Positions 41,632-63,477 of a stretch of DNA of 64,000 bases are shown in pieces. The notes below the pieces were generated by a model. The model saw only the letters and a program-made list of their open reading frames with translations. It searched no databases and was not told where the DNA came from. This stretch comes from Actinokineospora xionganensis (GTDB taxonomy: Bacteria > Actinomycetota > Actinomycetes > Mycobacteriales > Pseudonocardiaceae). Each line of letters begins with the position of its first letter. Position 1 is the stretch's first letter. Where the stretch lies: the NCBI RefSeq assembly GCF_014323725.1, contig NZ_JABVED010000002.1, forward strand, positions 62,001 to 126,000. Reading direction: 5' to 3'. The translations under genes and the position numbers were made by a program.

Positions 41632-41660
41632 CTGATTGCCGCTGTCCCAATGTTATCAGC

Positions 41661-41672
41661 GTTCGCGCGAAC
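41661..41672. promoter_or_regulatory. 12-bp perfect palindrome before the S8 protease gene
   Basis: GTTCGCGCGAAC is fully symmetric and lies 78 bp before the protease ATG. It could be a repressor site over the protease promoter; TTATCA at 41653 is a possible -10-like box beside it. Both are inferred from position only. Confidence 0.3.
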
Positions 41673-41749
41673 ACGTTCAGCACCTCTCAAGCAGCACACG
41701 GCCTGTTGTGAGGCAGGCCGAAGTGCCCCTGCCCGAAGGAGAACGTGCA

Positions 41750-45106: not shown

Positions 45107-45955
45107 TCAGAGGGTGCGGACGTTGCGGGTCAGCGTCGCGCGCGTGGCCAGGTCCTCATCGGCGGGATAGTCGACGCCGATGAGGGCCAAGCCGTGCGCG
45201 GGGGCCACTGTGATGGCGCTGGGGCGTTCGGTGGCGCTGAGCATGGAGGCGGGCCAGTCAGCCGGCTTGCGGCCCTCACCGACCGCGAGAAGCGCGCCGA
45301 CGAGGCTGCGGACCATCGAATGGCAGAAGGCGTCCGCGGACACCCGGGCGGCCAGCAGGCCGTCGGATTCGCGGGTCCAGTCGAGCCGCTGCAATTCGCG
45401 GATGGTCGTGGCGCCTTCGCGGCGTTTGCAGAAGGCGACGAAGTTGTGTTCGCCCAGGAGTTTGCGGGAAGCCTCGTTGAGGGCGTCCAGGTCCAGCTTT
45501 CGCGGCCAGGCGACCACATGGCCTCGGCGCAGCGGGTCAGCCGACCAGGCCGCGTCGCAGATTCGGTAGACGTAGTGCCTGCGGAGGGCGCCGAAGCGGG
45601 CGTCGAACTCCGCGGGGACGCGGCGCATCGCGGTGACGCGGACGTCGGCGGGCAACGCCCGGGCAAGCCTCAGGACCAAGGCGTCCGGGTCGGTTTCCGC
45701 AGGCAGGTCGGCGTGGGCTACCTGGCCGGTGGCGTGGACGCCTGCGTCGGTGCGGCCCGCGACCGTGAGGCGGACGTCGTGGCGCAGGACCAGGGACAGC
45801 GTGTCCTCCAGGACACCGCACACCGTTCGCCGCTCGGGTTGGCGGGCCCAGCCCGAGAAGTCGGTGCCGTCGTAGGCGATGTCCAGGCGAATGCGGACGA
45901 GCCCGCCGCCCCCAGCGGGGGTGACGGGCTCGTCCGTGGTGTTCTGCGGGGTCAG
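45107..45955 (-). CDS. truA: tRNA pseudouridine synthase TruA, likely CTG start
   Basis: An enzyme that makes pseudouridine at 38-40 of tRNA anticodon arms. Motifs are [18 protein letters not shown], the catalytic aspartate in [22 protein letters not shown] and [14 protein letters not shown]. The start is unusual. No ATG, GTG or TTG lies between the rplQ stop and the conserved [11 protein letters not shown] (that valine is GTC). The nearest workable start is CTG at 45953-45955, overlapping the rplQ stop as CTGA, with AAGGA 6 nt upstream; this gives 282 aa. An ATG at 46051 would overlap rplQ by 100 bp and is unlikely. Confidence 0.88.
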
Positions 45956-46671
45956 GACTCGTCCTTGGCGGACTCGTCCGACTCCTCTTCCCGCTGCGAC
46001 GGGGGCAGCTGGAAACCAGCGGCCTCCGCGGCCTCGGCGGTGGCGAACCACACCTCGGCGACCGTGCGGTCGTAGAAGGCGCTGTCCGGCACGTGGTACA
46101 GCATCGAGTCGGCGTTGCCCTTGATCGGGAAACCCTCCGGCTGCGAACCGTCCTCGAGCGGCAGGTGGCTGCCCTCGCCGTACGACTTGGTCTCCTCCGA
46201 CGCCTCCGACGCCTCGGCCGACTCAGTGGCCTCGACGTCAGCGGCCTTGTCGGCCTTCTTCGGCTTGTCAGCGAACTTGGTCTTGCGGGCGGCCTCGGCC
46301 TCCGCGGTGACCGTCTTCTCGCTGATCAGCTCGATGACCGCCATGCTGGCGTTGTCGCCCTTGCGCGGCATGGTCTTCGTGATGCGCAGGTAGCCACCCG
46401 CGCGGTCGCTGAAGAACGGGCCGATCTCGACACAGAGACGCTGCACGACGTCCTTGTCGCGGATCACCTTCATGATCTCGCGACGGTTGTGCAGGTCACC
46501 GCGCTTGGCCTTGGTGATCAGCTTCTCCGCGAACGGACGCAGCCGACGAGCCTTGGCCTCAGTGGTCTTGATCCGGCCGTGCTGGAACAGCGCGGTGGCC
46601 AGGTTGGCCAGAATCAGCCGCTCGTGGGCCGGGCCCCCGCCGAGACGGGCGCCCTTGGTTGGGGTGGGCAT
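45952..46671 (-). CDS. rplQ: 50S ribosomal protein L17 with an added C-terminal domain
   Basis: A 239-aa L17. The ribosomal core is residues 1-125 ([40 protein letters not shown]). A Lys/Ala/Glu/Ser linker follows (126-163). Residues 164-227 are an extra domain: [53 protein letters not shown]17 of most bacteria ends before the linker. The same domain ends L4 in this window. It resembles the small domain called sunset in ArfC-like actinobacterial proteins, from memory. Confidence 0.95.
45991..46182 (-). repeat. C-terminal add-on domain of L17, near copy of the one in L4
   Basis: Codons 164-227 of rplQ. Between 46086 and 46146 the DNA is identical to 62697-62757 in rplD for 61 nt, and the flanks on both sides also align well. 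Such identity at third codon positions points to recent duplication or gene conversion rather than protein-level constraint alone. Confidence 0.9.
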
Positions 46672-46722
46672 TCCTTGCTCCTTGTGGAATTCCGCTGCTC
46701 AGCCAGTCCGGAATGGACTGGA

Positions 46723-47772
46723 TCAGAGCTGCTCCGTCTCTGCGTAGTCCTGGCCGTCGTCGTTGCCGGTGTCCGCGCCTTCCGACCAGCCGTCGGAGGC
46801 GTAGTCCGCCGCGGCAGCCGTCGGGTCGAACCCGGGGGGGCTGTCCTTGAGCGCGAGACCGAGGCCGACGAGCTTCATCTTGACCTCGTCGATCGACTTC
46901 GCACCGAAGTTGCGGATGTCCAGCAGGTCCGCCTCGCTGCGCGAGACAAGCTCACCCACGGTGTGGATGCCCTCGCGCTTGAGGCAGTTGTAGGAACGCA
47001 CCGTCAGGTCGAGGTCCTCGATCGGCATCGCGTAGGCGGCGATGGTGTCGGCCTCCTGCGGCGACGGGCCGATCTCGATGCCCTCGGCGTCGATGTTCAG
47101 CTCGCGGGCGAGACCGAACAGCTCGACCAGCGTCTTGCCCGCGGACGCCACGGCGTCGCGCGGGGTGATCGACGGCTTGGTCTCGACGTCGAGAACGAGC
47201 TTGTCGAAGTCGGTCCGCTGCTCGACACGGGTGGCCTCGACCTTGTACGTCACCTTGAGGACCGGCGAGTAGATCGAGTCGACCGGAATCCGGCCGATCT
47301 CGGCGCCTGCCTGCTTGTTCTGCACGGCCGGGACGTAGCCGCGACCGCGCTCGACAACGAGCTCGATCTCCAGCTTGCCCTTGCCGTTCAGCGTGGCGAT
47401 GTGCAGGTCGGGGTTGTGCACCGTGACACCGGCGGGAGGAACGATGTCCCCCGCGGTGACCTCACCGGGTCCCTGCTTGCGCAGGTACATCGTCACCGGC
47501 TCGTCCTCCTCCGAGGAGACGACAAGCTCCTTGAGGTTGAGGATGACGTCGGTGACGTCCTCTTTGACGCCCGGAACCGTGGTGAACTCGTGCAGCACAC
47601 CGTCGATGCGGATGCTGGTCACCGAGGCGCCGGGGATCGAGGAGAGCAGCGTGCGCCGGATCGAGTTGCCGAGCGTGTAGCCGAAGCCAGGCTCGAGGGG
47701 CTCGATGACGAAGCGGGAGCGGGTCTCGTTGACCGGCTCCTCAGCCAGGGTGGGTCGCTGTGAGATGAGCAC
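46723..47772 (-). CDS. rpoA: RNA polymerase alpha subunit
   Basis: A 349-aa subunit that dimerises to nucleate RNA polymerase. The N-terminal domain shows [20 protein letters not shown] and [18 protein letters not shown]. The C-terminal domain, which contacts UP elements and activators, shows [20 protein letters not shown] and [19 protein letters not shown]. The acidic end ([14 protein letters not shown]) is typical of actinobacteria. The position between rpsD and rplQ is universal. The 47773-47890 gap carries no gene. Confidence 0.98.
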
Positions 47773-47890
47773 TTCTTGGTTCTTCCTTCCCGAGGACGCC
47801 CGCTATTTGACGTCACTGAAATGGGATGACAGGTATAGCGACAGTGCCGGCGACCTCTTGAATTTCAACAGGCCGCCGGCCCGGTCACGA

Positions 47891-48496
47891 TTACTTCGAG
47901 TAGTACTCGACGATGAGCTGTTCGGTCACCGGAACGTCGATCTGCGCGCGCTCGGGGAGCTGGTGCACCAGGATCCGGAGGTTGGACTGCACGACCTGCA
48001 GCCAACCCGGGATCGGGCGGTCACCGAAGGACTCCTTGGCGGCCACGAACGGGAGGGTGCCCAGCGACTTCGGCTTGACGTCGATGATGTCGAACTTCGA
48101 CACCTGGTAGCTGGGGATGTTCACCTTCTTGCCGTTCACCAGGAAGTGAGCGTGGCTCACGAGCTGGCGGGCCTGGCGGCGCGTGCGGGCGAGGCCCGCA
48201 CGGTAGACCACGTTGTCCAGACGCGATTCGAGCAGCTGGAGCAGGACCTCACCGGTCTTGCCCTCGCGGCGAACCGCCTCTTCGTAGTACTTGCGGAACT
48301 GACGCTCGAGGACGCCGTAGGTGTAGCGCGCCTTCTGCTTCTCCTGCAGCTGGAGCAGGTACTCGCTCTCCTTGATCCGACCGCGGCCGTGCTGGCCGGG
48401 CGGGTAAGGACGACGCTCGAATGCCTGGTCTCCGCCGACAAGGTCGACCTTGAGCCGACGCGAGATGCGGGTCGCGGGGCCGGTGTAGCGTGCCAT
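47891..48496 (-). CDS. rpsD: 30S ribosomal protein S4
   Basis: A 201-aa primary 16S rRNA-binding protein. The S4-type RNA-binding motif is visible at [20 protein letters not shown] and [20 protein letters not shown]. The N-terminal region lacks the four zinc cysteines, so this is the zinc-free form. The operon position is after rpsK. Confidence 0.97.
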
Positions 48497-48519
48497 CTCT
48501 TCTTACTCCTCCCCGTTCC

Positions 48520-48927
48520 TCAGACCCGGCGCCGCTTGGGCGGGCGGCAGCCGTTGTGAGGCTGCGGGGTCACGTCCTGAATGGTGCCGACCTCGAGGCC
48601 CGCCGCCTGCAGCGAGCGGATCGCGGTCTCCCGGCCGGAGCCGGGGCCCTTGACGAACACGTCGACCTTCTTGACGCCGTGCTCGGCAGCCTTGCGGGCA
48701 GCGTTCTCGGCGGCCATCTGGGCGGCGAACGGCGTCGACTTACGAGAGCCCTTGAAACCGACGTGGCCGGACGAGGCCCACGCGATGACAGCACCGGTCG
48801 GGTCCGTGATGGACACGATGGTGTTGTTGAAGGTGCTCTTGATGTGAGCGTGGCCGTGCGTGATGTTCTTCTTTTCCTTGCGCCGGACCTTTTTGACTCC
48901 GGCGCCGGTACGCGACTTCGGTGGCAT
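48520..48927 (-). CDS. rpsK: 30S ribosomal protein S11
   Basis: A 135-aa platform protein. Signatures are [40 protein letters not shown] and the basic end [10 protein letters not shown]. The start [20 protein letters not shown] is the actinobacterial form. A 194-bp gap separates it from rpsM; I see no gene there. Confidence 0.97.
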
Positions 48928-49121
48928 GTCTCTGGGTTTCTCCTAGCTGCTTCGCGAGGTGGTGATGACTGGAGCTGCGTGCCGGATTCGAGTTCCGGCG
49001 TCCGTGTAGAGGTCGCGCAGTGCAGCCGGACGGGCGCACTTGGGCGCGACCATGAGGGCCACGAATGGCCTGTTGCGTCGCCTCTGTGGAACAACGGCGA
49101 CCACGGTCTCGCAGCTCTTGC

Positions 49122-49502
49122 TCACTTCTTTCCGGCCTTCTTCTTGCCGGCGACCGTCTTCTTCGGGCCCTTGCGGGTACGGGCGTTGGTCTTGGTCCGC
49201 TGACCGCGGACGGGCAGACCGCGGCGCCACCGCAGGCCCTCGTAGCAGCCGATTTCGATCTTCCGGCGGATGTCGGCCTGAACCTCACGGCGCAGGTCAC
49301 CCTCGACCTTGAAGTTCTCTTCGATGTACTCACGAAGTTTGACGAGCTCGTCGTCGGACAAGTCCTTGACGCGCAGGTCCGGGCTGATCTCGGTGGCGAC
49401 CAGGAGCTCCTTGGAGCGGGTCCGGCCGATACCGAAGATGTAGGTCAGCGCGATCTCCATCCGCTTTTCGCGGGGGAGGTCTACGCCGGCGAGTCGTGCC
49501 AT
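49122..49502 (-). CDS. rpsM: 30S ribosomal protein S13
   Basis: A 126-aa head protein contacting the P-site tRNA. Visible are [20 protein letters not shown], the helix-hairpin-helix [20 protein letters not shown], and [20 protein letters not shown]. The lysine-rich end is normal. It precedes rpsK in the alpha operon. Confidence 0.97.
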
Positions 49503-49678
49503 GTCGGCGGTGTCTCCTCTGTTTCGTCTTCAGGTCTGCTCCCCTACCGCCCTGAGACCGACTCGATGGTCTCAAGACCCGGCCTGAAGTCCGGGCGTGA
49601 ACCAGGTCCGTCTGACCTGGCAGGTGCGGGAAGTTCGTCTGTGTAGCTGTCGTCGTCCGAACTACGACTGGGAACTGC

Positions 49679-49792
49679 TCAGCCCTGACGCTGCTTGTGG
49701 CGCAGGTTCTCGCAGATCACCATGACCCGGCCGTGACGGCGGATCACCTTGCACTTGTCGCAGATCTTCTTGACGCTCGGGTTGACCTTCAC
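49679..49792 (-). CDS. rpmJ: 50S ribosomal protein L36 (zinc-ribbon form)
   Basis: A 37-aa protein, [20 protein letters not shown] followed by [17 protein letters not shown]. Cys11, Cys14, Cys27 and His32 make the zinc site, so this is the zinc-containing paralogue. The GTG start is at 49792. It sits between infA and rpsM as usual. Confidence 0.95.
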
Positions 49793-49875
49793 GTCTGCTT
49801 TCTCCTGCTTCGGCCGCGTGCCCCCGAGAAGCCGAGGGCACCGATAGTGGCATCCCAGTCAGAGCGACTGGGGAG

Positions 49876-50097
49876 TCACTTGTAGCGGTAGACGATGCGG
49901 CCGCGGGACAGGTCGTAGGGCGAAAGCTCTACGACGACCCGGTCCTCAGGCAGAATGCGGATGTAGTGCTGCCGCATCTTGCCGCTGATGTGCGCGAGAA
50001 CCTTGTGGCCGTTCTCCAACTCGACGCGGAACATCGCGTTGGGGAGTGGCTCGACCACGCGGCCTTCGACCTCGATGGCCCCGTCCTTCTTGCCCAT
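49876..50097 (-). CDS. infA: Translation initiation factor IF-1
   Basis: A 73-aa single S1/OB-domain protein, [20 protein letters not shown] with [20 protein letters not shown] and the end [11 protein letters not shown]. It blocks the ribosomal A-site during initiation. The ATG at 50097 follows GGAGG closely. The frame open further up is not conserved. Confidence 0.97.
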
Positions 50098-50189
50098 GTC
50101 CTCCGCGTTTCGTGACGTGTTGACTTTGCAACGACGGGCATGCCACACGGCGACGACCTGCACCACTGAGTGACACGCACGGCGAAACC

Positions 50190-50206
50190 GGCACTCGAAT
50201 AGTGCC
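50190..50206 (-). promoter_or_regulatory. Hairpin in the infA upstream region
   Basis: GGCACT and AGTGCC pair around a 5-nt loop, 93 bp before infA and 60 bp after the map stop. It may be an attenuator or map terminator; no T-tract follows. A clear infA promoter was not found in 50098-50266. Confidence 0.35.
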
Positions 50207-50266
50207 AGCGGTCAAGTGTACGCGCCGGTCACTTGACGCCCAAATCGGGGTCCACCAGCGGGTGAA

Positions 50267-51097
50267 CTACTCCGGGGCGGTCAGGACCCAGGGGCCGTCG
50301 TCGGTCACGGCGACAGTGTGCTCCCAGTGGGCGGCACGGGAGCCGTCGGCGGTGACGACGGTCCAGCCGTCCTCCAGTTCCACCGTCTCCTCGGCGCCGA
50401 GGGTGAGCATCGGCTCGATGGCGATGGCCATGCCGACACGCAGGCGCGGGCCCTTGCCGGGCTTGCCGTAGTTCGGCAGGAACGGGTCCATGTGCATGGA
50501 GCTGCCGATGCCGTGGCCGCCGTATTCGCGGACGATGCCGTACGTGCGGCCGTCGGCGCGCTCCGAGGAGTGGACCGAGGTCTCCACGGCGTGGGAGATG
50601 TCGGTCAGCCGGTTGCCGGGGCGGATGGCTTCGATGCCCGCCAGCATGGACGCCTTCGTGGCGTCGGAGAGCGCCTGGTCGGCGTCGCTGATGGTGCCGA
50701 CGAACAGGGTCACGGCCGAGTCGCCGTGCCAGTCGTCGAGGATGGCACCGCAGTCGACCGAGATGAGGTCGCCGTCGGCGAGCACCTGGGACTTGCTGGG
50801 GATGCCGTGGACGATCTGCTCGTTGACCGAGGCGCAGATGCTCGCCGGGAAGCCGTGGTAGCCCTTGAAGGACGGCACGGCCCCGGCGTCGCGGATGGTC
50901 TGCTCGGCGATCTCGTCGAGCTCCGCGGTGCTGACGCCCGCGCGCGCCGCGGCCGCGACGGCGGCCAACGACTTGGCCACCACCAGGCCCGCGGCGCGCA
51001 TCGCGTCGAGCTCGCCCGGCGACTTGATCTCGATCATGCGGGAACGCCAGGTCGCGAGAGCCATGCGGAGACCGCCGAACATGCCACCGCCGGTCAC
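50267..51097 (-). CDS. map: Methionine aminopeptidase, type I
   Basis: A 276-aa enzyme that removes the initiator methionine. The five metal ligands are visible: both aspartates in [20 protein letters not shown], His in [11 protein letters not shown], Glu in AIEPMLTLG and Glu in HWEHTVAVT. The GTG at 51097 overlaps adk as GTGA. Internal ATGs at 51064 and 51037 ([11 protein letters not shown]) are alternatives, the latter matching the usual family start. It follows secY and adk as in most bacteria. Confidence 0.95.
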
Positions 51098-51648
51098 GTC
51101 CGAGCGCGCAGCGAGTCCAGCACGCGGCCGGTGATCTCGTCGACATCGCCGACCGCGTCGATCGTGATCAGCACGTCGGCGTAGTAGTCGAGCAGCGGGG
51201 CCGTCTCCGAGCGGTACACCTGCTGGCGGTGCCGGATGACGGCCTCGTTGTCGTCGTCGCGGCCGCGGGCGAGCAGACGCTCGACCACGACCTCTTCGTC
51301 GATCCGGAACTCGACCACAGCGTCGATCTTGGTGTCCGAGGCGCTGAGGATCTCTCCCAGCACCGCGGCCTGACCGACATTGCGCGGGAACCCGTCGAGC
51401 AGGAAGCCGTCAGTGGCGTCCGGCTGGGCGAGCCGCTCGCGGACCATCTCGTTGGTGACCTCATCGGGCACGAGCTGTCCCGAGTCGAGGTACCGCTTGA
51501 CGTCCTGGCCGAGTTCGGTGTTGTTCGCGATGTGCGCCCGGAAGAGGTCACCGGTGGAGATGTGCGGTACGCCGAGCTTGTGGCTCAAAGCGGTCGCCTG
51601 GGTGCCTTTTCCCGCTCCGGGCGGGCCAACGAGAACAACACGAGTCAC
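51094..51648 (-). CDS. adk: Adenylate kinase
   Basis: A 184-aa kinase. Visible are [45 protein letters not shown] and the short LID region [19 protein letters not shown]. The LID lacks the zinc cysteines and is short, as in other actinobacterial forms. The GTG at 51648 overlaps secY as GTGA. It balances AMP, ADP and ATP. Confidence 0.97.
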
Positions 51649-52949
51649 TTGAGGAACCCTTCGTAGTTTCGCTGCATGAGCTGGCTCTCGATCTGCTTCA
51701 CCGTGTCCAGACCGACGCCGACCATGATCAGCACCGCGGTGCCGCCGAACGGGAAGTTCTGGTTCTGCCCCTCGGCGGTGATGTCGAGGAAGAAGTTCGG
51801 CAGAACGGCGATGGTGCCGAGGTAGAGCGAGCCGGGCAGGGTGATCCGGCTCAGCACGAAGCTCAGGTAGTCGGAGGTGGAGCGGCCCGGGCGGATACCC
51901 GGAATGAAGCCGCCGAACTTCTTCATCTCGTCCGCACGCTCGGTCACGTTGAACGTGATCGTGATGTAGAAGTACGTGAAGAAGATGATCAGGCCGAAGT
52001 ACACGCCGATGTGCACCCAGCTGGACTGCTTCGTCAGGTGGTTGGCGACGAACTGGTTCCACCAGCTGGCGCTGTCGGTGCCGACGAGCTTGGTGATCAG
52101 GTCCGGCAGGTACAGCAGCGACGAGGCGAAGATGACCGGGATGACGCCCGCCTGGTTGACCTTCAGCGGCAGGTAGGTCGAGGTGCCGCCGTACATGCGG
52201 CGACCGATCATGCGCTTGGCGTACTGGACCGGGATCCGGCGCTGGCCCTGCTCGACGAACACGACGCTGGCGATGATGACCAGGCCGAAGACGCAGACGA
52301 CCGCGAAGGTCACGCCGCCCTGGTTGTCGAGGATGGTCTTGCCCTCGAACGGGATGCGGGCCGCGATGTTGACGAACATCAGCAGGGACATGCCGTTGCC
52401 GATGCCGCGCTCGGTGATGAGCTCGCCGAACCACATGATCACCGCGGTGCCCGCGGTCATGGTCGTGACGACCACGACGAGGGTGAACGTGGTGCTGTTC
52501 GGGATGACCGGGTCCGGGCAGTTGCCGAAGAGCTGACCGCCGTTGGCCATGGCCACGATGCCGGTCGCCTGCAGGACGGCGAGGGCGATGGTCAGGTAGC
52601 GCGTGTACTGCGTCAGCTTGCCCTGACCGGCCTGGCCTTCCTTCTTGAGCTGCTCGAACCGCGGAATGACCACGGTGAGCAATTGGATGATGATGCTCGC
52701 GGTGATGTAGGGCATGATCCCCAGCGCGAACACCGAAAGTTGGAGTAGGGCGCCGCCGCTGAACAGGTTCAGCAGCTGGGTGATGCCCTCGGTCTGGACG
52801 CCCTCGATGCACTTCTTGACGTTCGGATACGACACACCGGGCGACGGCAGGGCCGCGCCCACGCGGTAGATCGCAATGATGCCGAGCGTGAAAAGGATCT
52901 TGCGGCGCAGGTCCGGCGTCGCGAGAGCCGAGCGGAAGGCGCTGAGCAC
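51645..52949 (-). CDS. secY: Protein translocase subunit SecY
   Basis: A 434-aa channel protein with ten transmembrane helices. Signatures are [52 protein letters not shown] and [20 protein letters not shown]. The end NYEGFLK is normal. In this genome it is not directly after rplO. Two unrelated genes and three leader hairpins (52969-53085) precede it, so it has its own promoter. Confidence 0.97.
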
Positions 52950-52968
52950 GCAGGAACCTCCATCGGCG

Positions 52969-53085
52969 TCACCGGCAACTCAGTGCCGGTGAACGGCTTA
53001 ACCGGCTGGTCGCCGGCAGGGAACATGTCCCGACTGCCAGGTGCTGGCAAGCCAGGAACGCTTCGGGGTACCTACCCCGAAGCGT
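52969..53085 (-). promoter_or_regulatory. Three successive hairpins between lysE and secY
   Basis: Perfect stems are seen at 52969-52992 (TCACCGGCA/TGCCGGTGA, loop 6), 53035-53049 (TGCCAG/CTGGCA, loop 3) and 53058-53085 (13-bp arms ACGCTTCGGGGTA, tight loop). The outermost is probably the lysE terminator. The inner two lie in or near the secY leader and could regulate it. No T-tracts are present. Nothing else was seen in 52950-53157. Confidence 0.5.
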
Positions 53086-53157
53086 GCTGACGACTGTAAC
53101 AGCACTACCGGGGCATCTATCACCCATGGGGTGGCCAAACCTGCCCCGCGGATAGCC

Positions 53158-53781
53158 TCAGCGCGGTGATGAAGCTAACATCCCGGCCATTCCCAGCAGA
53201 ATCACACCTGTGCCGCGGTCCAGGTTGCGTTGGGCACGCTTGCTCATGCGCACCGCGCGGACGACCGCGCCGATACCGACATAGATGCTTCCGGCCGCCA
53301 ACTCGGCCACCAGGTAGACCGCGCCGAGCGTCAGCACCTGGGCCGTGACCTGGCCACGAACCGGGTCGATGAACTGCGGGACGAACGCGGTGAAGATCAG
53401 GACGGCCTTCGGGTTGGTGACCGCGGTGAGGAACTCCTTGCGCGCGAGCGCGAAGAGGCTCGGCGCTGTTGTCACGTCGTCGGCCGCGGTGAAGGCCCCG
53501 GCCCGGAAGCTCGTGTAGAGGATCCGGCCGCCGATCCAGACCAGGTAGGCCACGCCGACCCACTTGACGACGGTGAGGGCGTGCTCGGACGCGGCGAGGA
53601 GGCTGCCCAGGCCGGCGGCCACGGCGGCGATGAGGATGGCGAAGCCGGTGAGCCTGCCGAACAGGCCCGTGACGCCGCTGGCGGTGCCGTAGCGCATGCC
53701 GTGGTGCATGCCGAGCAGGTTGTTCGCCCCCGGGGTCATGGCGACCAGGAAGGCGGCGCCGAGGAAGACGAGCAGCCACAT
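53158..53781 (-). CDS. LysE-family amino acid exporter
   Basis: A 207-aa membrane protein with about six helices. The family hallmark GAAFLVAMTPGANNLLGMHH is near the start, with VKWVGVAYLVWIGGRILYTS and FLTAVTNPKAVLIFTAFVPQ in order. The ATG at 53781 (MWLLVFLGAAFL) was taken over the longer frame because it gives the normal length. It lies in an uncommon place, between rplO and secY. Confidence 0.85.
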   Translation of the reverse strand: MWLLVFLGAAFLVAMTPGANNLLGMHHGMRYGTASGVTGLFGRLTGFAILIAAVAAGLGSLLAASEHALTVVKWVGVAYLVWIGGRILYTSFRAGAFTAADDVTTAPSLFALARKEFLTAVTNPKAVLIFTAFVPQFIDPVRGQVTAQVLTLGAVYLVAELAAGSIYVGIGAVVRAVRMSKRAQRNLDRGTGVILLGMAGMLASSPR

Positions 53782-53924
53782 GGGGCCATGCCTACCAGGG
53801 CTGATGCCGGCGGCGCGCGCGGATTTCGGATATCTCACGCCCGGTGATGCCTGCGGGCTTGCCGCACGGGCTTCACCGGCCGCACGCCCACAGCGGCGGC
53901 TCCGGCTGTGGTCAGGTCGCGAGG

Positions 53925-54422
53925 TCAGCTTTGGGGACGGGCCGTGGGGTGGGTGGGGATTTCGGCGGTCACCTTGGTCAGCGTGGTGGTCAGGGTGGCG
54001 CCGCAGCGGGTGAGGGCCCGGATGGCCGCTGTGTTGTCCGGTGTGGTGTCAGCGCGGACTTTGTGAATGCCCGCCTCGGCGGCGATGTCCAGGAGGATGC
54101 GGAGGGCGTCCACGCCGATCCCCTGGCTGCGCATGTGCCTGCCGAGCCACATGCCGGTCTCGGCCGTCCCGGGCTCGTCCAGGTGACGCAGGCGGATCAT
54201 TCCGACAATCTCCCCGCGCAGCTGGATGGCGTACATCAGGGTGCCCTCGGCGCCTCCGGCGTGGGAGCGGTGGAACTCGCGGAACGCCGTGCGCCTGGCC
54301 TCCGTCCAGCCCGGCGGGCCCTCGACGGCGGGCATCACGTCGTCGGGTTCCGCGTAGGCCACCGCGACCGTCAGGAGGTCCTCGGTCAGGGCTTCGTCGA
54401 GCGGGGTCAGTCGAACGATCAC
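53925..54422 (-). CDS. GNAT-family N-acetyltransferase
   Basis: A 165-aa acetyltransferase. The acetyl-CoA loop is WLGRHMRSQGIGVDALRILL (motif A), and the N- and C-terminal strands fit the fold (YAIQLRGEIVGMIRLRHL, VRADTTPDNTAAIRALTRCG). The start MIVRLTPLDEALTEDLL is at GTG 54422. It resembles ribosomal-protein or small-molecule acetyltransferases, and the substrate is unknown. It lies between the rplO terminator and lysE; a gap of 143 bp follows it. Confidence 0.82.
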   Translation of the reverse strand: MIVRLTPLDEALTEDLLTVAVAYAEPDDVMPAVEGPPGWTEARRTAFREFHRSHAGGAEGTLMYAIQLRGEIVGMIRLRHLDEPGTAETGMWLGRHMRSQGIGVDALRILLDIAAEAGIHKVRADTTPDNTAAIRALTRCGATLTTTLTKVTAEIPTHPTARPQS

Positions 54423-54482
54423 AGTGAGGAGTGTCCCTCACCCGCCGCTGAGCCAACTCCTGTGCCAACCCCGATCCGGACG

Positions 54483-54523
54483 CGACGAAGCCGGGCACGC
54501 GAATCGCGTGCCCGGCTTCGTCG
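54483..54523 (-). terminator. 19-bp hairpin ending the rplC-rplO operon
   Basis: CGACGAAGCCGGGCACGCG (54483-54501) pairs perfectly with 54505-54523 around the loop AAT. It lies 17 bp after the rplO stop. No T-tract follows on the minus strand, the I-shaped kind common in actinobacteria. Confidence 0.8.
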
Positions 54524-54539
54524 GGTGTTTCTGTCTGGA

Positions 54540-54986
54540 TCAGACCAGCGCGATGGCGGAACCGCCACCGGCGTTGAGCTTCTCCACAGCGCTGCTGGAG
54601 AACTTGTCAGCAGTGATGTCCAGCTTGACGCCGTTCAGGTCCCCGTTGCCGAGGATCTTCACGAGCGAGTTCTTGCGGACGAGACCGGCCTGCACCAGGT
54701 CCGGGATACCGACGGCGCCGCCGTCGGGGAACGCCACAGCGACGTCTCCGACGTTGACGACCTGGTACTCGGTCCGGAAGCGGTTCTTGAAGCCCTTGAG
54801 CTTCGGGAGCCGCATCTGGATCGGCATCTGGCCACCCTCGAAGCGCGCGGGGACGTTCTTGCGCGCCTTGGTGCCCTTGGTACCGCGACCAGCCGTCTTG
54901 CCCTTGGAGCCTTCACCGCGACCGACACGGATCTTGTCGCGCTTGGCGCCGGGGGCCGGACGCAGGTGGTGGATTTTGATCGACAT
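54540..54986 (-). CDS. rplO: 50S ribosomal protein L15
   Basis: A 148-aa protein, [20 protein letters not shown] with [20 protein letters not shown] and [20 protein letters not shown]. Last gene of the ribosomal operon here. It overlaps the rpmD stop by one base, and a strong hairpin follows. Confidence 0.97.
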
Positions 54987-55171
54987 CAGGCGTCGACCTC
55001 CTCAACGACTACGAGGTGGCGGACACAGTGGATCAGGCCACGCACCTCAGGGGTGTCCTCGCGCACCGTCGACTGACGAATCTTGCGCAGACCGAGGGTC
55101 CGGAGGGACTCGCGGTGGTTGCGCTTCGTGCCGATGGTGCTCTTGATCTGGGTCACCTTGAGCTGTGCCAT
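54986..55171 (-). CDS. rpmD: 50S ribosomal protein L30
   Basis: A 61-aa protein, [20 protein letters not shown] with [18 protein letters not shown]. The conserved GLRKI loop binds 23S rRNA. The ATG at 55171 lies 1 bp after rpsE. Longer open sequence upstream is rpsE shadow. Confidence 0.95.
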
Positions 55172-55172
55172 G

Positions 55173-55847
55173 TCATCCCACCTGCCCAGCGGCCGCGGCC
55201 GCCGCACGGGCGCGGAGCATGCCTGCCGGAGCGACGTCCTCGAGGGGGAGGCCACGACGGGCCGCGACCTCTTCCGGACGCTGCAGACCCTTGAGGGCCG
55301 CAACGGTGGCGTGCACGATGTTGATGGCGTTGTCGCTACCGAGCGACTTCGACAGCACGTCGTGGACGCCCGCGCACTCCAGCACGGCGCGAACCGGACC
55401 ACCGGCGATAACACCGGTACCGGCGCTGGCCGGGCGCAGGAGCACCACACCGGCAGCCTTCTCGCCCTGGATGGGGTGCGGGATGGTGCCACCGATACGC
55501 GGGACGCGGAAGAAGTTCTTCTTGGCTTCCTCCACACCCTTCGCGATCGCGGCGGGCACCTCCTTGGCCTTGCCGTAGCCGACACCGACCATGCCGTCGC
55601 CGTCACCGACCACGACCAGGGCGGTGAAGCTGAAGCGACGACCACCCTTCACGACCTTGGCGACGCGGTTGATCGCCACAACGCGCTCCAGGTGCGGGCT
55701 CTTCTCCTGAGCCTGACCACGACCGCCACCATCGCGACGGTCGCCGCGACCGCGACGCTCGCCACGCTCGCCGCCCTGGCCACCGCCCTGGCCGCCCTGG
55801 CCGCCAGGTCCGCCCTGGCCGCCGAACTGCCGCGTACGTCCCGGCAT
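55173..55847 (-). CDS. rpsE: 30S ribosomal protein S5 with glycine-rich N-terminal extension
   Basis: A 224-aa S5. Residues 1-48 are Gly/Gln/Arg-rich with GGQGG and RGDRRDGG units; the core begins [40 protein letters not shown] and [20 protein letters not shown] complete it. Such glycine-rich tails occur in actinobacterial S5. The ATG at 55847 starts [11 protein letters not shown]5 controls decoding accuracy. Confidence 0.96.
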
Positions 55848-55878
55848 CAGGCGTTCCTTCCCTTGTTGCTCTGCATGA

Positions 55879-56286
55879 TCAGAACTCCAGCCCCGCGCCG
55901 CGGGCCGCTTCGGCCAGCGCCGCGATACGGCCGGTGTACTTGTTGCCGCCGCGGTCGAACACGACCGCGGAGATGCCGGCGTCCTTGGCCCGACCGGCAA
56001 CCAGCTCGCCGACCTTGGCCGAACGGGCCTTCTTGTCGCCGTCGACCGCGCGGACATCCGCCTCGAGGGAGGTTGCCGACGCGAGCGTGCGGCCCGCGAG
56101 GTCGTCGACGATCTGCACGGTGATGTGCCGCGCCGACCGGTGAACGACCAGGCGAGGACGCTCCGGCGTGCCGCTGATCTTCTTGCGGAGCCGGAAGTGC
56201 CTGCGGGTCTTCGAGACGCGGCGCTTGGTGGACACATCGGTGCCCACCGGCTTGCGCTTCGTGATAGTCGCTTCGCTCATGATCAC
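55879..56286 (-). CDS. rplR: 50S ribosomal protein L18
   Basis: A 135-aa protein that binds 5S rRNA. Visible are [35 protein letters not shown] and [20 protein letters not shown]. The GTG at 56286 overlaps the rplF stop as GTGA. The ATG at 56280 ([11 protein letters not shown]) is the other choice and removes two residues. Confidence 0.96.
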
Positions 56287-56822
56287 TTACCCGTCTTTCC
56301 GACCTTGCGGCGGATCTTCTCGCCGGAGTACCGGACGCCCTTGCCCTTGTACGGGTCGGGCTTGCGCAGCTTGCGGATGTTGGCGGCGATTTCGCCGACT
56401 CGCTGCTTGTCGATACCCGAGACGGAGAACTTGGTGGGGCTCTCCACGGTGAAGGTGATGCCCTCAGGGGCGACGACCTTCACCGGGTGGCTGAAGCCGA
56501 GCGCGAACTCGAGGTCCGAACCCTTCGCCATGACGCGGTAACCGACGCCGTGGATCTCAAGCTTCTTCTCGTAGCCCTCGGTGACACCGACGACCAGGTT
56601 GTTGACAAGCGAACGGGTCAGACCGTGCAGCGCACGGCTCTGCCGCTCGTCGTTGGGGCGCTTGACCTCAAGCGTGCCGTCCTCGGCGCGCTCGACGACA
56701 ATGGGCTCCGAGACGGTGAGTGCCAGGGTGCCCTTGGGGCCCTTCACGCTGACGTTCTGACCGTCGATGTTGATGTCGACCCCAGCCGGGACGGGGATCG
56801 GAAGCCTTCCGATGCGAGACAT
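56283..56822 (-). CDS. rplF: 50S ribosomal protein L6
   Basis: A 179-aa protein, [20 protein letters not shown] with [25 protein letters not shown] and the end [20 protein letters not shown]. It sits near the sarcin-ricin loop. Normal length and position between rpsH and rplR. Confidence 0.97.
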
Positions 56823-56840
56823 ACGTTTCTCCCCCTTCCC

Positions 56841-57239
56841 TTACCAGACGTAGGCGAGGACTTCTCCGCCCACGCCCTGCTTGTTGGCCTGACGGTCGGT
56901 CAGCAGGCCGCCGGACGTGGAGATGATCGCCACGCCCAGGCCGCCGAGAACCTTCGGCAGATTGGTCGACTTCGCGTACACCCGGAGACCGGGCTTTGAC
57001 ACCCGGCGCAGACCGGCGATGCTGCGCTCGCGGTTGGGGCCGTACTTCAGCTCGACGACGAGGTTCTTGCCCTTCTCGCCGTCTTCGTCGCGGAAGCCGG
57101 TGATGTAGCCCTCACGCTGAAGGATCTCGGCGATGTGCGCCTTGAGCTTCGAGTGCGGCAGCACGACCTCGTCGTGGTATGCCGAGTTGGCATTGCGCAG
57201 ACGGGTCAAGAAGTCTGCGATCGGGTCGGTCATCGTCAT
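56841..57239 (-). CDS. rpsH: 30S ribosomal protein S8
   Basis: A 132-aa primary 16S rRNA binder, [20 protein letters not shown] with [33 protein letters not shown] and the end [10 protein letters not shown]. In E. coli S8 represses the spc operon; that is not tested here. A 114-bp gap to rpsN holds no gene. Confidence 0.97.
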
Positions 57240-57353
57240 GGTGACCTGTCAACCTTTCTCGCCGGGGTTCCCTTGCGGGCCTACGGCGAACTGGGGGTAA
57301 AGCGGGCCAGGCAGTCCGGTCCACTGTGGATAACCGCAGCGGACCGGACGGTC

Positions 57354-57539
57354 CTACCAGCTGGACTTGCTGACGCCGGGCAGTTCGCCGGCGTGGGCCA
57401 TCTGGCGCAGGCAGATTCGGCACAGGCCGAACTTGCGGAACACCGAGTGCGGACGGCCGCAGCGGTTACACCGGGTGTAGCCGCGCACCTTGAACTTCGG
57501 CTTCTTGGAAGCCTTGTGGACAAGAGCCTTCTTCGCCAT
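57354..57539 (-). CDS. rpsN: 30S ribosomal protein S14 type Z (zinc form)
   Basis: A 61-aa short S14. The zinc cysteines are in TRCNRCGRP and GLCRICLRQ (CxxC twice). [20 protein letters not shown] starts it and [10 protein letters not shown] ends it. This zinc form is the usual spc-operon S14 in actinobacteria. A zinc-free paralogue would be elsewhere. Confidence 0.97.
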
Positions 57540-57543
57540 CGGC

Positions 57544-58107
57544 TCAGTTCTCCTTGAACGGGAAGCCCAGGTGCTTCAGCAGCGCCCGGCCCTCTTCGTC
57601 GTTGATCGCGGTGGTGACGATGGTGATGTCCATGCCGCGCTGGCGGTCGATCGAGTCGGGGTCGATCTCGTGGAACATCGACTGCTCGTTGAGGCCGAAC
57701 GTGTAGTTGCCGTTGCCGTCGAACTGCTTGCCCGACAGGCCGCGGAAGTCGCGGATACGCGGCAGCGCGATCGTCAGCAGGCGGTCGAGGAACTCCCACA
57801 TGCGGTCGCCGCGCAGGGTGACCCGGGCGCCGATCGGCATGCCCTCACGCAGCTTGAACTGCGCGATGGACTTGCGGGCCTTGCGGACCTCGGGCTTCTG
57901 GCCGGTGATCGTGGCGAGGTCGCGGACCGCGCCTTCGATCAGCTTGCCGTCGCGGGCGGCGTCGCCGACACCCATGTTGACGACGACCTTGACCACGCCG
58001 GGGATCTGCATGACGTTGGCGTAGTTGTACTCGTCCCGCAGAGCGACCGTGATTTCCTCGCGGTAGCGCGTCTTGAGACGGGGGATGATCTTCTCAGTGG
58101 TAGTCAT
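57544..58107 (-). CDS. rplE: 50S ribosomal protein L5
   Basis: A 187-aa 5S rRNA-binding protein. Visible are [40 protein letters not shown] and [20 protein letters not shown]. Ends GFPFKEN. The gap to rpsN is 4 bp. Confidence 0.97.
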
Positions 58108-58109
58108 GA

Positions 58110-58439
58110 TCAGATCTCCTTCCCATTGCCGCTGCCGCGAGCGATACGGACCTTGCGGCCCTCGTCATCGAACTTGTAGCCCACGCGGACCGCCTTGCCC
58201 TCGGACACCAGCATCACGTTCGACACGTGGATGGGCGCTTCCTGGGTGACGATGCCGCCGGACTGGGCGCCGCGCTGGGTCTGCGAGATCCGGGTGTGCT
58301 TCTTGACCCGGTTCACACCCTCGACGAGGACCTTGGAGGTCTCGGGGTAGGCCTGAATGACCTTGCCCTTCGCGCCCTTGTCCTTGCCCGCGATGACGAC
58401 GACCGTGTCGCCCTTCTTGATCTTCATCTTGGTCTTCAT
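58110..58439 (-). CDS. rplX: 50S ribosomal protein L24
   Basis: A 109-aa protein with the KOW motif: [39 protein letters not shown] sequence follows. It initiates 50S assembly. Two bases separate it from rplE. Confidence 0.96.
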
Positions 58440-58442
58440 GAG

Positions 58443-58811
58443 TCAGAGCACCTCCGGCGCGAGCGAGATGATCTTCATGAACTTCTTGTCGCGCAGCTCG
58501 CGGCCGACCGGGCCGAAGATGCGGGTCCCACGGGGCTCACCCTCCGGCTTGATCAGCACGGCGGCGTTCTCGTCGAACCTGATGTAGGACCCGTCCGGAC
58601 GGCGACGCTCCTTGACGGTGCGAACGATGACCGCCTTGACGACGTCACCCTTCTTCACCGCCGCGCCGGGGATCGCGTCCTTGACGGTGGCGACGATGAT
58701 GTCGCCGATGCCCGCGTAGCGACGGCCCGAGCCACCGAGAACACGGATGCAAAGGATTTCCTTCGCACCGGTGTTGTCGGCGACACGCAGCCGCGACTCC
58801 TGCTGGATCAC
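58443..58811 (-). CDS. rplN: 50S ribosomal protein L14
   Basis: A 122-aa protein, [20 protein letters not shown] with [20 protein letters not shown] and [20 protein letters not shown]. Highly conserved and of normal length. A 74-bp gap separates it from rpsQ. Confidence 0.98.
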
Positions 58812-58885
58812 TTCAACTCCTGACCATTCTTGGCTCGCCAGATTTCCGACCTGACAAGCTCGGTCTTACCTGGAACAGCTTGTGG

Positions 58886-59158
58886 TTACTTGGCCTTCTC
58901 GAGGATCTCGACGAGCCGCCAGCGCTTGGACGCCGACAGCGGGCGGGTCTCCATGATCTGGACCCGGTCGCCGATACCCGCGGTGTTGGCCTCGTCGTGC
59001 ACCTTCACCTTGGTGGTGGAGCGCAGGACCTTGGAGTACCGCGGGTGCTTCTTGCGGTCTTCCAGGGCGACGACGACGGTCTTGTCCATCTTGTCGGACA
59101 CGACCAGGCCCTCGCGGACCTTGCGGTTGTTCCGAACTTCGGTCTCGTTCTCGCTCAT
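58886..59158 (-). CDS. rpsQ: 30S ribosomal protein S17
   Basis: A 90-aa OB-fold protein: [40 protein letters not shown] and [20 protein letters not shown]. Its ATG overlaps rpmC by 4 bp. Confidence 0.97.
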
Positions 59159-59394
59159 GCTGCGCCCTCATTGCTTTCCGGGGCTGCCGACAGGCCAAGC
59201 TCGCGCTCACGCATGACGGTGTAGATCCGGGCGATCTCGTGCTTGACCGTGCGCAGTCGACGGTTGTTGTCGAGCTGCCCGGTGGCCATCTGGAAACGAA
59301 GGTTGAAGAGCTCTTCCTTCGCCTCACGCAGACGCAGCACGAGCTCTTCTTCGTTGAGCTCGCGGAGGTCTGCCGCGGTGGTTCCCGCTGCCAT
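59155..59394 (-). CDS. rpmC: 50S ribosomal protein L29
   Basis: A 79-aa two-helix protein at the peptide exit tunnel: [20 protein letters not shown] and [21 protein letters not shown] short tail ([11 protein letters not shown]) is added. Start and stop overlap rplP and rpsQ. Confidence 0.96.
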
Positions 59395-59813
59395 CAGAAG
59401 TCACCACCTTCACGCGTGACGATGCGGCACTTCATCGGAAGCTTGTGGATCGCGCGGCGCAGTGCCTCGCGCGCCACGGTCTCGTTCGGGAAGCTCATCT
59501 CGAACATGACACGACCCGGCTTGACGTTGGCCACCCAGTACTCGGGGGAACCCTTACCGGAACCCATGCGGGTCTCGGCAGGCTTCTTGGTGAGCGGGCG
59601 GTCGGGGAAGATGTTGATCCACACCTTGCCGCCACGGCGGATGTGCCGGTTGATGGCGATACGAGCGGACTCGATCTGCCGGTTGGTGACGTACGCGGGC
59701 TCGAGCGCCTGGATGCCGAACTCGCCGAACGTGACGCGCGTGCCGCCCTTGGCAGCGCCCGATCGCTTCGGGTGGTGCTGCTTACGGTGCTTTACCCTGC
59801 GCGGGATAAGCAT
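59394..59813 (-). CDS. rplP: 50S ribosomal protein L16
   Basis: A 139-aa protein near the A-site: [40 protein letters not shown] and [20 protein letters not shown]. Normal length. Overlaps rpmC by one base. Confidence 0.97.
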
Positions 59814-59816
59814 GAC

Positions 59817-60646
<830 letters not shown>

Positions 60647-60647
<1 letters not shown>

Positions 60648-61060
60648 TAGCGGGCACCACCCTTCTTGGCAGCCTTGGCTGCGGGCTTCGGCCGGGACTC
60701 GACCTCGACCGTGATGTGGCTCGTGCGCTTGCGGATCCGGTAGGCGCGCCCCTGGGCACGCGGACGGAAACGCTTCAACGTCGGGCCCTCGTCCACGTAC
60801 ACCGTCGACACCCAAAGGGTGTCCGGGTCGAGGTTGAGGTTGTTCTCGGCGTTGGCAATGGCACTGGCGAGCACCTTCGCGACCGGCTCACTAGCCGCCT
60901 GCGGCGCGAACTGGAGCACGGCCAGGGCCTCGCTGGCGCTACGTCCCCTGATGAGCTCGACGACGCGGCGCACCTTCATGGGCGTGTCGCGAACGTAGCG
61001 AGCCCGAGCAACGGCGCGAGGGAATTCCTCCTGCGCCGGAGCTTCGTTACGGGCGTTCAT
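60647..61060 (-). CDS. rplV: 50S ribosomal protein L22
   Basis: A 137-aa exit-tunnel protein: [40 protein letters not shown] and [20 protein letters not shown]. The tunnel loop has the macrolide-contact region. A short basic tail ([11 protein letters not shown]) follows. Confidence 0.97.
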
Positions 61061-61133
61061 CGCTGCTTCCCCTTGCTCTTTCTCTGGTACAGCCCCGCCT
61101 GGCGGGGAACTGCTGTGCTTTAGTTCGAGCCGC

Positions 61134-61415
61134 CTAGCGGCGACGGGCCTTGCGGTCGTCCTTGATGTGGCCCTTGAACGTGCGGGTCGGGGCGAACTCG
61201 CCCAGCTTGTGACCCACCATGGCCTCGGAGACGAACACCGGGACGTGCTTGCGGCCGTCGTGCACGGCGATCGTGTGCCCCAGCATGTCGGGGATGATCG
61301 TCGAGCGACGCGACCAAGTCTTGATCACGGTCTTCTTGCCGGACTCGTTGAGAGCGTCCACCTTCTTGAGCAGGTGGTCGTCCACGAACGGGCCCTTCTT
61401 CAGGCTGCGTGGCAT
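61134..61415 (-). CDS. rpsS: 30S ribosomal protein S19
   Basis: A 93-aa protein, [20 protein letters not shown] with [20 protein letters not shown] and [20 protein letters not shown]. It contacts S13 and the P-site. A 73-bp gap to rplV. Confidence 0.98.
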
Positions 61416-61432
61416 TGCTTCTACCTCCCTGC

Positions 61433-62269
61433 TCAGCGCTTGTTCTTGCCGGTGGAACGGCGGCGGACGATCAACTTGTCGCTCGGCTTGTTGCGACGGG
61501 TGCGGCCTTCGGGCTTACCGGCCGGGTTCACCGGGTGGCGACCACCGGAGGTCTTACCCTCACCACCACCGTGCGGGTGGTCGACCGGGTTCATCGCGAC
61601 ACCGCGGACGGTCGGGCGCTTGCCCTTCCAGCGCATGCGGCCCGCCTTGCCCCAGTTGATGTTGGAGTGATCGGCGTTGCCGACCTCGCCAACCGTGGCG
61701 CGACAGCGCACGTCGACGTTGCGGATCTCGCCGGACGGCATACGCAGCTGGGCGTAGGGGCCGTCCTTCGCGACGAGACGCACGCTCACACCGGCGGACC
61801 GGGCGATCTTCGCGCCGCCACCGGGGCGGAGCTCGATCGCGTGGATCACGGTGCCGACCGGGATGTTGCGCAGCGGCAGGTTGTTGCCCGGCTTGATGTC
61901 GGCGCGGGGGCCGTTCTCAATCGGGTCGCCCTGCGACAGCTTGTTCGGCGCGATGATGTAGCGCTTCTCGCCGTCGGCGTAGTGCAGCAGCGCGATGCGG
62001 GCGGTGCGGTTGGGGTCGTACTCGATGTGAGCGACCTTGGCCGGCACGCCGTCCTTGTCGTTGCGACGGAAGTCGATGAGGCGGTACGCGCGCTTGTGAC
62101 CGCCACCCTTGTGCCGGGTGGTGATCTTGCCGTGCGCGTTACGCCCGCCCTTGCCATGCAGGGGACGGATCAGCGACTTCTCCGGCGTCGACCGGGTGAT
62201 CTCGGCGAAGTCCGACACGCTGGAGCCACGACGGCCCGGGGTGGTCGGCTTGTATTTGCGGATGCCCAT
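61433..62269 (-). CDS. rplB: 50S ribosomal protein L2
   Basis: A 278-aa 23S rRNA binder at the peptidyl-transferase centre: [39 protein letters not shown] core and the conserved histidine loop [20 protein letters not shown]. Normal length and position. Confidence 0.98.
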
Positions 62270-62284
62270 GTTTTAGTCAGTCCC

Positions 62285-62584
62285 TTACGCGGCCGGGCCG
62301 CCGAAGATCTCGATCGGCTTGCTCTCCGGGGAGAGCGTGACGATCGCGCGCTTCGTGTCCTTGCGCTTGCCGAACCCGGTGCGGGTGCGCTTGCGCTTTC
62401 CGTTGCGGTTGAGCGTGTTGACGCTCACCACCTTCACGCCGAAGACCTTCTCGACCGCGATCTTGATCTGGGTCTTGTTGGCGTCCGGAGACACCACGAA
62501 GGTGTACTTGTTCTCCTCGAGCAGCCCGTAGGACTTCTCGGAGATCACCGGCGCGAGCAGGATGTCGCGGGGGTCGGGGATCAC
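62285..62584 (-). CDS. rplW: 50S ribosomal protein L23
   Basis: A 99-aa protein at the exit where SRP and trigger factor dock: [40 protein letters not shown] and [20 protein letters not shown]. Overlaps rplD by 4 bp. Confidence 0.97.
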
Positions 62585-63477
62585 TTGTCCTCCTCAGACT
62601 TCCGCTGCGACGGCGGCAACTGGAAGCCTGCCTTCTCAGCGTCCTCGGCGGTGGCGAACCACACCTCGGCAACGGTCCGGTCGTAGAAAGCGGTGCCCGG
62701 CACGTGGTACAGCATCGAGTCGGCGTTGCCCTTGATCGGGAAACCCTCCGGCTGCGAGCCGTCCTCCAGCGCGTCGTGGCTGCCCGCACCGAAGCGCGCG
62801 CCGCCGACGAGGCCCTGGACCTCGGAGCCCTTGGCCGAAGCCTTGGCGCCGCGGGTCGGGGCGGACAGGAACGCGTCGAGCGCGGCCTTGGTGAACACGA
62901 TGTCGTCGTTGACGAGCACGTCATAGGTGTTCAGCTGGTCCGGCGCGATCACGTGCACGTTCTGCAGGTTGCGCACCGACACCCAGGCGACGTCCTCGTC
63001 ACGGGTCAGCACGACCAGAACGCGCTTGGCGTCGGTCAGCGTGGCCAGCAGGTTGCGGGCGGTCTTGGTCGAGGGCTTGTCGCCGTCCACCAGACCGGTC
63101 ACCACGTGCACCTGGCCGGAGCGGGCCCGGTCGGAGAGGGCACCGCGCAGGGCGGCGGCCTTCATCTTCTTGGGGGTCCGCTGGGCGTAGTCGCGCGGCT
63201 GCGGGCCGTGCGAGATACCGCCACCGACGAACTGCGGGGAACGCGTCGAGCCCTGACGGGCGCGGCCGGTGCCCTTCTGGCGGTACGGCTTGCGGCCACC
63301 GCCGGAGACCTCGCCACGAGTCTTCGTCGAGTGCGTGCCCTGGCGGGCCGCGGCGAGCTGCGCCGTGACCACCTGGTGCATCAGCGGAATGTTCGCCTGC
63401 ACGTCGAAGATCTCTGCGGGAAGCTCGGCAGTGCCGTCGGTCTTGCCCGCGGGGGTCTTGATGTCAATGCTGGTCAT
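62581..63477 (-). CDS. rplD: 50S ribosomal protein L4 with an added C-terminal domain
   Basis: A 298-aa L4. The core is residues 1-220 ([40 protein letters not shown]). A short link GLVGGARFG leads to the extra domain at 230-292: [53 protein letters not shown]. The domain is almost the one of L17. Ordinary L4 ends near residue 220. The added part would lie outside the ribosome core. It shares 61 identical bases with rplQ. Confidence 0.96.
62602..62790 (-). repeat. C-terminal add-on domain of L4, near copy of the one in L17
   Basis: Codons 230-292 of rplD. The DNA at 62697-62757 is identical to 46086-46146 in rplQ over 61 nt. Both copies are on the minus strand, 16.6 kb apart. Confidence 0.9.

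Follow-up and report, generated by a model that had tools for sequence, protein, structure and literature searches.

The ribosomal gene cluster of Actinokineospora xionganensis raises the question of why two of its products, the ribosomal proteins L17 and L4, end in almost the same domain. The genes were analyzed in a stretch of 64,000 nucleotides (contig NZ_JABVED010000002.1, positions 62,001 to 126,000), which is called the window below and to which all coordinates refer. The shared C-terminal domain is the sunset domain of NCBIfam. We tentatively suggest, with rather less than even confidence, that it acts in the cytoplasm as a docking tag through which large machines reach a shared putative partner, perhaps at the membrane. 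After this general tag we rank a functionless passenger, then a recruiter confined to the ribosome and then self-association of the domain.

Identity of the Shared Domain

The gene rplQ (45952..46671, minus strand) encodes ribosomal protein bL17 in its sunset variant (239 amino acids, aa), and rplD (62581..63477, minus strand) encodes the sunset variant of uL4 (298 aa). The two genes are positioned near opposite ends of the ribosomal gene cluster. In L17, a linker at about residues 119–164 (46180..46317, minus strand) precedes the sunset domain with its leader (residues 165–226; 45994..46179, minus strand; model match 46009–46125). In L4, the linker at about residues 203–229 (62791..62871, minus strand) lies between residue 202, where the L4 profile match ends, and residue 230, where the domain row begins, and the domain with its leader occupies residues 230–291 (62605..62790, minus strand; model match 62620–62736). 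The two domains, each of about 60 residues, are 89% identical, which bears out the near identity reported by an earlier reading made from the sequence alone.

At the DNA level, a repeat finder paired 45972–46180 with 62583–62791 (209 nt, 85% identity), and the 61-base tract at 46086..46146 is indeed an exact match to 62697..62757. Among the 50 residues common to both tails, 39 use the same codon, where the codon bias of 20 cluster genes (19 ribosomal genes and rpoA) predicts 32.8 ± 2.8. An identical run of 20 codons, chosen post hoc, has a chance of about 1.3e-4 under the same bias. Since codon bias alone gives 32.8 of 50, the silent identity is only moderately unusual, and it is the protein identity that is the strong signal.

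Against NCBIfam, L17 scored 349.5 bits over residues 1–223 with NF051448 (50S_L17_sunset, cut-off 280), and L4 scored 440.9 bits over residues 17–285 with NF051449 (50S_L4_sunset, cut-off 385). The domain model NF051437 (42 positions, cut-off 27 bits) gave 78.5 bits at residues 183–221 of L17 and 76.1 bits at residues 248–286 of L4. Both proteins thus lie above the curated cut-offs, with no departure from these families, and the likeness to ArfC-type sunset proteins that the sequence-only reading had pointed out is correct by these scores. A Pfam scan of the window proteins gave no match for the tail of either protein; PF27542, a newer Pfam accession, marks the domain in protein database records. 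NCBIfam has sunset variants for L4, L17, L20, S2 and ArfC, whose model descriptions state no function, and literature searches turned up no published function of the domain. Two further models, PRK12279 (L22/unknown domain fusion) and PRK14537 (L20/unknown domain fusion), are by name other cases of a ribosomal protein with an unexplained added domain; their matches (84.4 against a cut-off of 526, and 132.6 against 187) fall short and lie mostly in the ribosomal part. The L17/L4 pair therefore belongs to named families and is not new, contrary to its earlier description as previously undescribed; the new content is the wider set of carriers and the relationship to Ada.

Carriers of the Sunset Domain

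Sunset domains were found in at least 14 protein families, ribosomal and non-ribosomal, and in multi-copy membrane proteins. Most loci were typed by motif and by eye, with Pfam or NCBIfam confirmation for some examples; L035, L042, L043, L149 and L152, in which no domain exceeded the threshold of our own six-sequence model, were left out. The ribosomal and NusA carriers differ between genomes: L20 in G097, L4 in G214, L17 in G085, S2 in G484, S3 together with L22 in G496, and L22, L4 and NusA in G113. An S16 carrier was recognized by eye in Nakamurella aerolata, and another is a Nocardioidaceae protein. For L22, S3, S16 and NusA, one example each was confirmed by NCBIfam, in which no sunset-variant model of their own was matched. 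L20 of G097 (203.7 vs. 375) and S2 of G461 (402.7 vs. 710) resemble the NCBI sunset variants and score below their cut-offs.

The non-ribosomal carriers include the ATP synthase gamma subunit, COX1, an aquaporin (MIP), an H+-pyrophosphatase, an Fe-S oxidoreductase and a CdsA-type protein (CTP_transf_1), the last with the domain on the N-terminal side. A complete ATP synthase gamma gene with the domain is present in L271, while L248 begins in an arginine-repressor piece and may be a mis-joined contig. In one genome (G567), the domain occurs on ATP synthase gamma, on L22 and twice in a further piece. By motif, ATP synthase gamma makes up 58 of the 274 listed carrier proteins; these were drawn from the best 120 of 1959, the best 120 of 283 and 63 of 63 matches, and two of the searches started from non-ribosomal carriers. 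A helix-hairpin-helix-like stretch was seen after the sunset domain in the Fe-S oxidoreductase and in a multi-sunset transmembrane (TM) protein (P0246, P0247, P0249, P0251, P0124); in P0246, HHH_5 is below the Pfam cut-off.

The signature YHR.DSR recurs among these non-ribosomal proteins. It was found in 48/58 gamma subunits, 2/2 COX1, 3/3 aquaporins, 2/2 pyrophosphatases, 4/4 Fe-S proteins, 2/2 CdsA-type proteins, 7/11 TM proteins and the single NusA (1/1), and it was absent from L17 (0/66), L4 (0/78), L22 (0/27) and S2 (0/3); the counts come from motif typing of the 274 listed proteins, of which 16 stayed untyped. Its sharing among non-ribosomal carriers fits a spread of the domain between genes within a lineage.

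The sequence-only reading had proposed that the domain brings one factor specifically to the ribosome. A scan of named genomes agrees with this, as 77 of the 81 carriers were ribosomal (13 of them all typed by eye), though the query itself consisted of tails from ribosomal proteins and NusA, and so do G214 and G085, which have the domain on a ribosomal protein only. However, ATP synthase gamma, COX1, aquaporin, H+-pyrophosphatase, the CdsA-type protein and membrane proteins also carry the domain, which makes a purely ribosomal recruiter improbable in our estimate, and a link to the ribosome does not define the domain.

Membrane Carriers and the Arf Operon

The A. xionganensis genome has six sunset domains above the cut-off: one each in L17 and L4, three in a protein of 586 aa and one in a protein of 535 aa. 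The latter two proteins flank an ArfA/OmpATb-type protein with BON and OmpA domains, which scored 83.5 against NF051434 (ArfA/OmpATb of the arf operon, cut-off 81). The three-sunset protein scored 207 against NF051433 (ArfC_sunset, cut-off 100), from which it differs by its three domain copies, and the one-sunset protein scored 68.4, below that cut-off. Both start with one TM helix followed by basic residues, and by the positive-inside rule the sunset domains of these inner-membrane proteins would face the cytoplasm.

Similar proteins occur elsewhere. The non-ribosomal carriers fetched from the family were mostly single-TM proteins, with no helix found in some. Net charge was higher on the C-terminal flank of the helix in all 14 picked single-TM carriers without a cysteine pair and in none of the 11 scorable carriers with such a pair (of 14; one tie). 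The cysteine-pair sunset protein, a small single-TM protein that is probably outside the cell, is widespread in Acidimicrobiia-type genomes (L153–L172; also L148, L150 and L151, where the upstream stretch by eye resembles 2-isopropylmalate synthase). In some genomes of the same order, probably Mycobacterium (L021, L028, L034), the domain stands by eye at the end of LGFP-repeat-like proteins.

Single-TM proteins with two to four sunset domains were seen, and tandem copies are not confined to them: L17 of Herbihabitans rhizosphaerae (L045) and L4 of G461 carry two each, while ArfC-like and other single-TM proteins carry three or four. Such copies would suit a domain that binds itself, with tails clustering ribosomes and the tandem copies on membrane proteins forming a scaffold. 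Self-binding would work even where L4 is the sole carrier, and, among the matches listed, family TM proteins with three or four sunset domains in frame (G000, G301, G303, G445, G453) or two in adjacent frames (G417) occur only in genomes with ribosomal tails. On the other side, the domain is predicted to fold confidently as a monomer, and we consider self-binding less probable still than recruitment to the ribosome alone.

Predicted Structure and Proposed Docking Function

In the AlphaFold model of full-length L17, the predicted local distance difference test (pLDDT) score falls below 50 at residues 135–162 of the linker and is about 75–84 in the domain; the domain modeled alone reaches 88. 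The tethers measure 56–99 aa in L17 (27 tails), 43–99 aa in L4 (17) and 82–137 aa in L22 (26), so that linker length varies about 1.7 to 2.3-fold within one carrier. All 85 typed entries, among which a few genomes appear twice, have a domain of negative net charge. Among PDB sequences, the domain matched a single distinct one, L4 of the Cutibacterium acnes ribosome, and the cryo-EM report on it (PMC10085706) describes, in its passage on uL4, the C-terminal extension as solvent exposed, without density and ‘likely disordered’. As far as that passage goes, it agrees with the predicted flexible arm in supporting the earlier view that the tails are exposed.

Based on the above results, the following mechanism is suggested. 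The computational results comprise the identity of the domain, its predicted flexible tether, the swapping of carriers between lineages and the cysteine-less relation to Ada. The tail would consist of a long, acidic, unstructured tether bearing a small folded domain for docking, and through L17 and L4 it would hold the ribosome to a putative common cytoplasmic partner used by other sunset-bearing machines as well. In A. xionganensis, the other bearers would be the two cytoplasm-facing inner-membrane proteins of the ArfA/OmpATb-type operon, with one and three sunset domains. The tag would be interchangeable: its delivery to the cytoplasmic surface of a large complex would count, and the subunit carrying it would not. 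We infer binding of the domain to protein and a partner common to the carriers, by which ribosomes may be brought to the membrane or to each other. A docking tag is preferred to an rRNA-binding extension because the acidic, mobile head changes carriers freely. A comparable design is known from the bL12 (L7/L12) stalk, where a flexible hinge bears an acidic, folded head, present in several copies per ribosome, that recruits a translation factor. By analogy, the sunset tail may work like this stalk, from which it differs in fold and position and of which it is not a member.

A broader version of the proposal seems doubtful to us. According to it, one small Ada-derived domain would serve Actinobacteria as a universal address tag on the cytoplasmic side of ribosomes, NusA, ATP synthase, cytochrome oxidase, H+-pyrophosphatase, aquaporin and a lipid-synthesis enzyme. 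Membrane scaffolds, formed by the single-TM proteins that have two to four copies, would collect these carriers and give a spatial order to translation and energy metabolism; the subunit that carries the tag would be free to change, and the tag would be kept. If the tag is common, the finding of one partner would explain all carriers and help to approach the question of how these bacteria place ribosomes and energy machines.

Distribution Across Genomes

A sunset match was found in 26 of the 296 genomes of the phylum sample (E ≤ 1e-4) and in 135 of the 150 genomes of the family, Pseudonocardiaceae (E ≤ 0.001). A ribosomal sunset tail is present in at least 26 of 160 family genomes, in all 26 on L17 and in nine also on L4; the family counts are lower bounds, as the matches were listed down to about E 7e-15 and part of them were fetched. 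In the genus, L17 was found in all 16 species and its tail in four. Among 14 control genomes, Bacillus subtilis was the one from outside the phylum with a sunset match over the NCBI cut-off; the domain is therefore not confined to Actinobacteria.

Several observations weigh against the docking tag. The L17 of 12 of the 16 genus species is tail-less, and the tail is therefore dispensable. A single sunset domain exceeded the cut-off in G214 (L4, on one contig) and in G085 (L17), both listed as 100% complete; a second sunset protein is therefore not required. Several Ilumatobacter-type genomes with ribosomal tails list only the cysteine type, probably extracellular, as another sunset protein. The search for a TM helix in the ArfC-position protein gave none in some genomes of Actinophytocola. 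In the charge comparison, the proteins were picked by hand, the bare count of lysine and arginine was mixed for the cysteine type (four N-side, five equal, two C-side), and the further cysteine-less TM carriers L192 and L256, left out of the scoring, were ambiguous by eye. Finally, the selection on the L17 domain given below is no stronger than on its linker by dN/dS, though it is on L4.

An obligatory pairing with a membrane sunset protein was rejected, being ruled out by G214, G085, G465, G544 and G566, in which the other matches at E ≤ 1 reached at most 12.9 bits. A phage or plasmid origin was also rejected: no relatives were found in viral contigs or phages, and only two plasmid records contained the domain. 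One record of the plasmid collection, NZ_LR134464.1 (H1; Tsukamurella, 224 kb), includes an rplQ with the tail and may be a mislabelled piece of chromosome.

Copying and Selection

The shared bases had been taken to imply a recent copy or ongoing gene conversion between L17 and L4. Ongoing conversion is not supported by two close relatives with both tails (G445, G453) or by the comparison of 45 tails, namely those in genomes with two or more typed tails (frames L109 and L143 typed by hand). The L17 tails of two species of the genus, G000 and G453, share 41 of 45 codons, whereas L17 and L4 tails within one genome share 32, 32 and 35 of 45 (G000, G445 and G453, respectively). For 42 of the 45 tails, no other copy in the same genome was closer than the nearest same-gene tail of another genome. 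The tails thus diverge with their host genes, and this independent divergence across species was the outcome that the sequence-only reading had named beforehand as evidence against it. The in-genome copy was the closer one for three tails only, the two tandem L4 domains of G461 and one S3 tail without a counterpart.

What remains of the earlier claim is an older copying event. The L4 tails of the genus are closer to the L17 tails of the same genome (similarity 0.85–0.88) than to the L4 tails of other genera (0.80–0.83), and for this reason an older copy between the L17 and L4 tails is likely. When only other genera were compared, the in-genome copy was closer for 18 of the 45 tails (for 6 of these 18, there was no same-gene counterpart), a result in keeping with older copying within lineages. 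In G496, S3 and L22 are adjacent genes (L107, 296–1417 and 1417–2307, minus strand) that closely share tail and linker, which indicates a clear case of recent copying between neighboring ribosomal genes.

The ratio of nonsynonymous to synonymous substitution rates (dN/dS), pooled over within-genus pairs, was 0.46 in both the domain and the linker of L17 and 0.23 in its core (38 pairs); the corresponding values of L4 were 0.20 (domain), 0.51 (linker) and 0.31 (core; 6 pairs). In L17, the proportion of nonsynonymous differences (pN) was 0.106 in the domain, about half the value of 0.193 in the linker. Purifying selection acts on the domain, but on L17 it does not exceed that on the linker by dN/dS.

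These data bear on the possibility that the domain is a tolerated passenger, spreading by recombination between exposed protein ends with little or no benefit to the host protein. Its patchy occurrence, the tail and linker shared by L22 and S3 in G496 and the L17-domain dN/dS equal to that of the linker are what a passenger would show. However, 11 positions are invariant over L4, L17, L20, L22, S2, S3 and NusA (38 tails picked from 86 typed), and the lower pN on L17, the low dN/dS of the L4 domain and the lack of a relative in viral contigs or phages also speak for something more. Although it comes next after the docking tag, a passenger is in our view unlikely.

Relationship to Ada

The sunset profile aligned to three Ada domains of the same genome with 83.7% probability, and the three VIA matches were Ada. 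The Ada motifs TGIYCRPSC and AGYRACR align with SMLYHVPDS and AGFQLPP of the sunset domain. The cysteines of the Ada domain bind zinc, whereas neither sunset domain of the window contains a cysteine. One sequence, L044, passes both the sunset and the Ada curated cut-offs. The window L17 and L4 gave no match to Ada_Zn_binding (PF02805; gathering score 23 bits) at E ≤ 10, while two multi-sunset proteins pass it with 24.2 (A. xionganensis) and 25.5 (P0122), no single stretch passing alone. Foldseek matches between the predicted sunset fold and Ada were weak (E of 1 or more). The profiles, and weakly the predicted fold, point to a descent of the sunset domain from the Ada zinc-binding domain with loss of the cysteines; from PF02805 it differs in this loss and in its attachment to different proteins. 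The relationship provides a likely origin for the sunset domain and a fold to test.

The Ada relationship could suggest that the domain binds nucleic acid. The cysteine-free domains of the window, the negative net charge of every typed entry and the passage on uL4 in the C. acnes report (PMC10085706), where the extension is without density, argue against this, and we regard such binding as very improbable.

Neighboring Genes

Beside the ribosomal cluster, the window contains two neighboring subtilisin-like proteases, named by eye (41636–43321 and 43588–45105, plus strand). They share several blocks of 70–77% DNA identity at a spacing of 1784–1787 bases, which corresponds to a tandem gene duplication.

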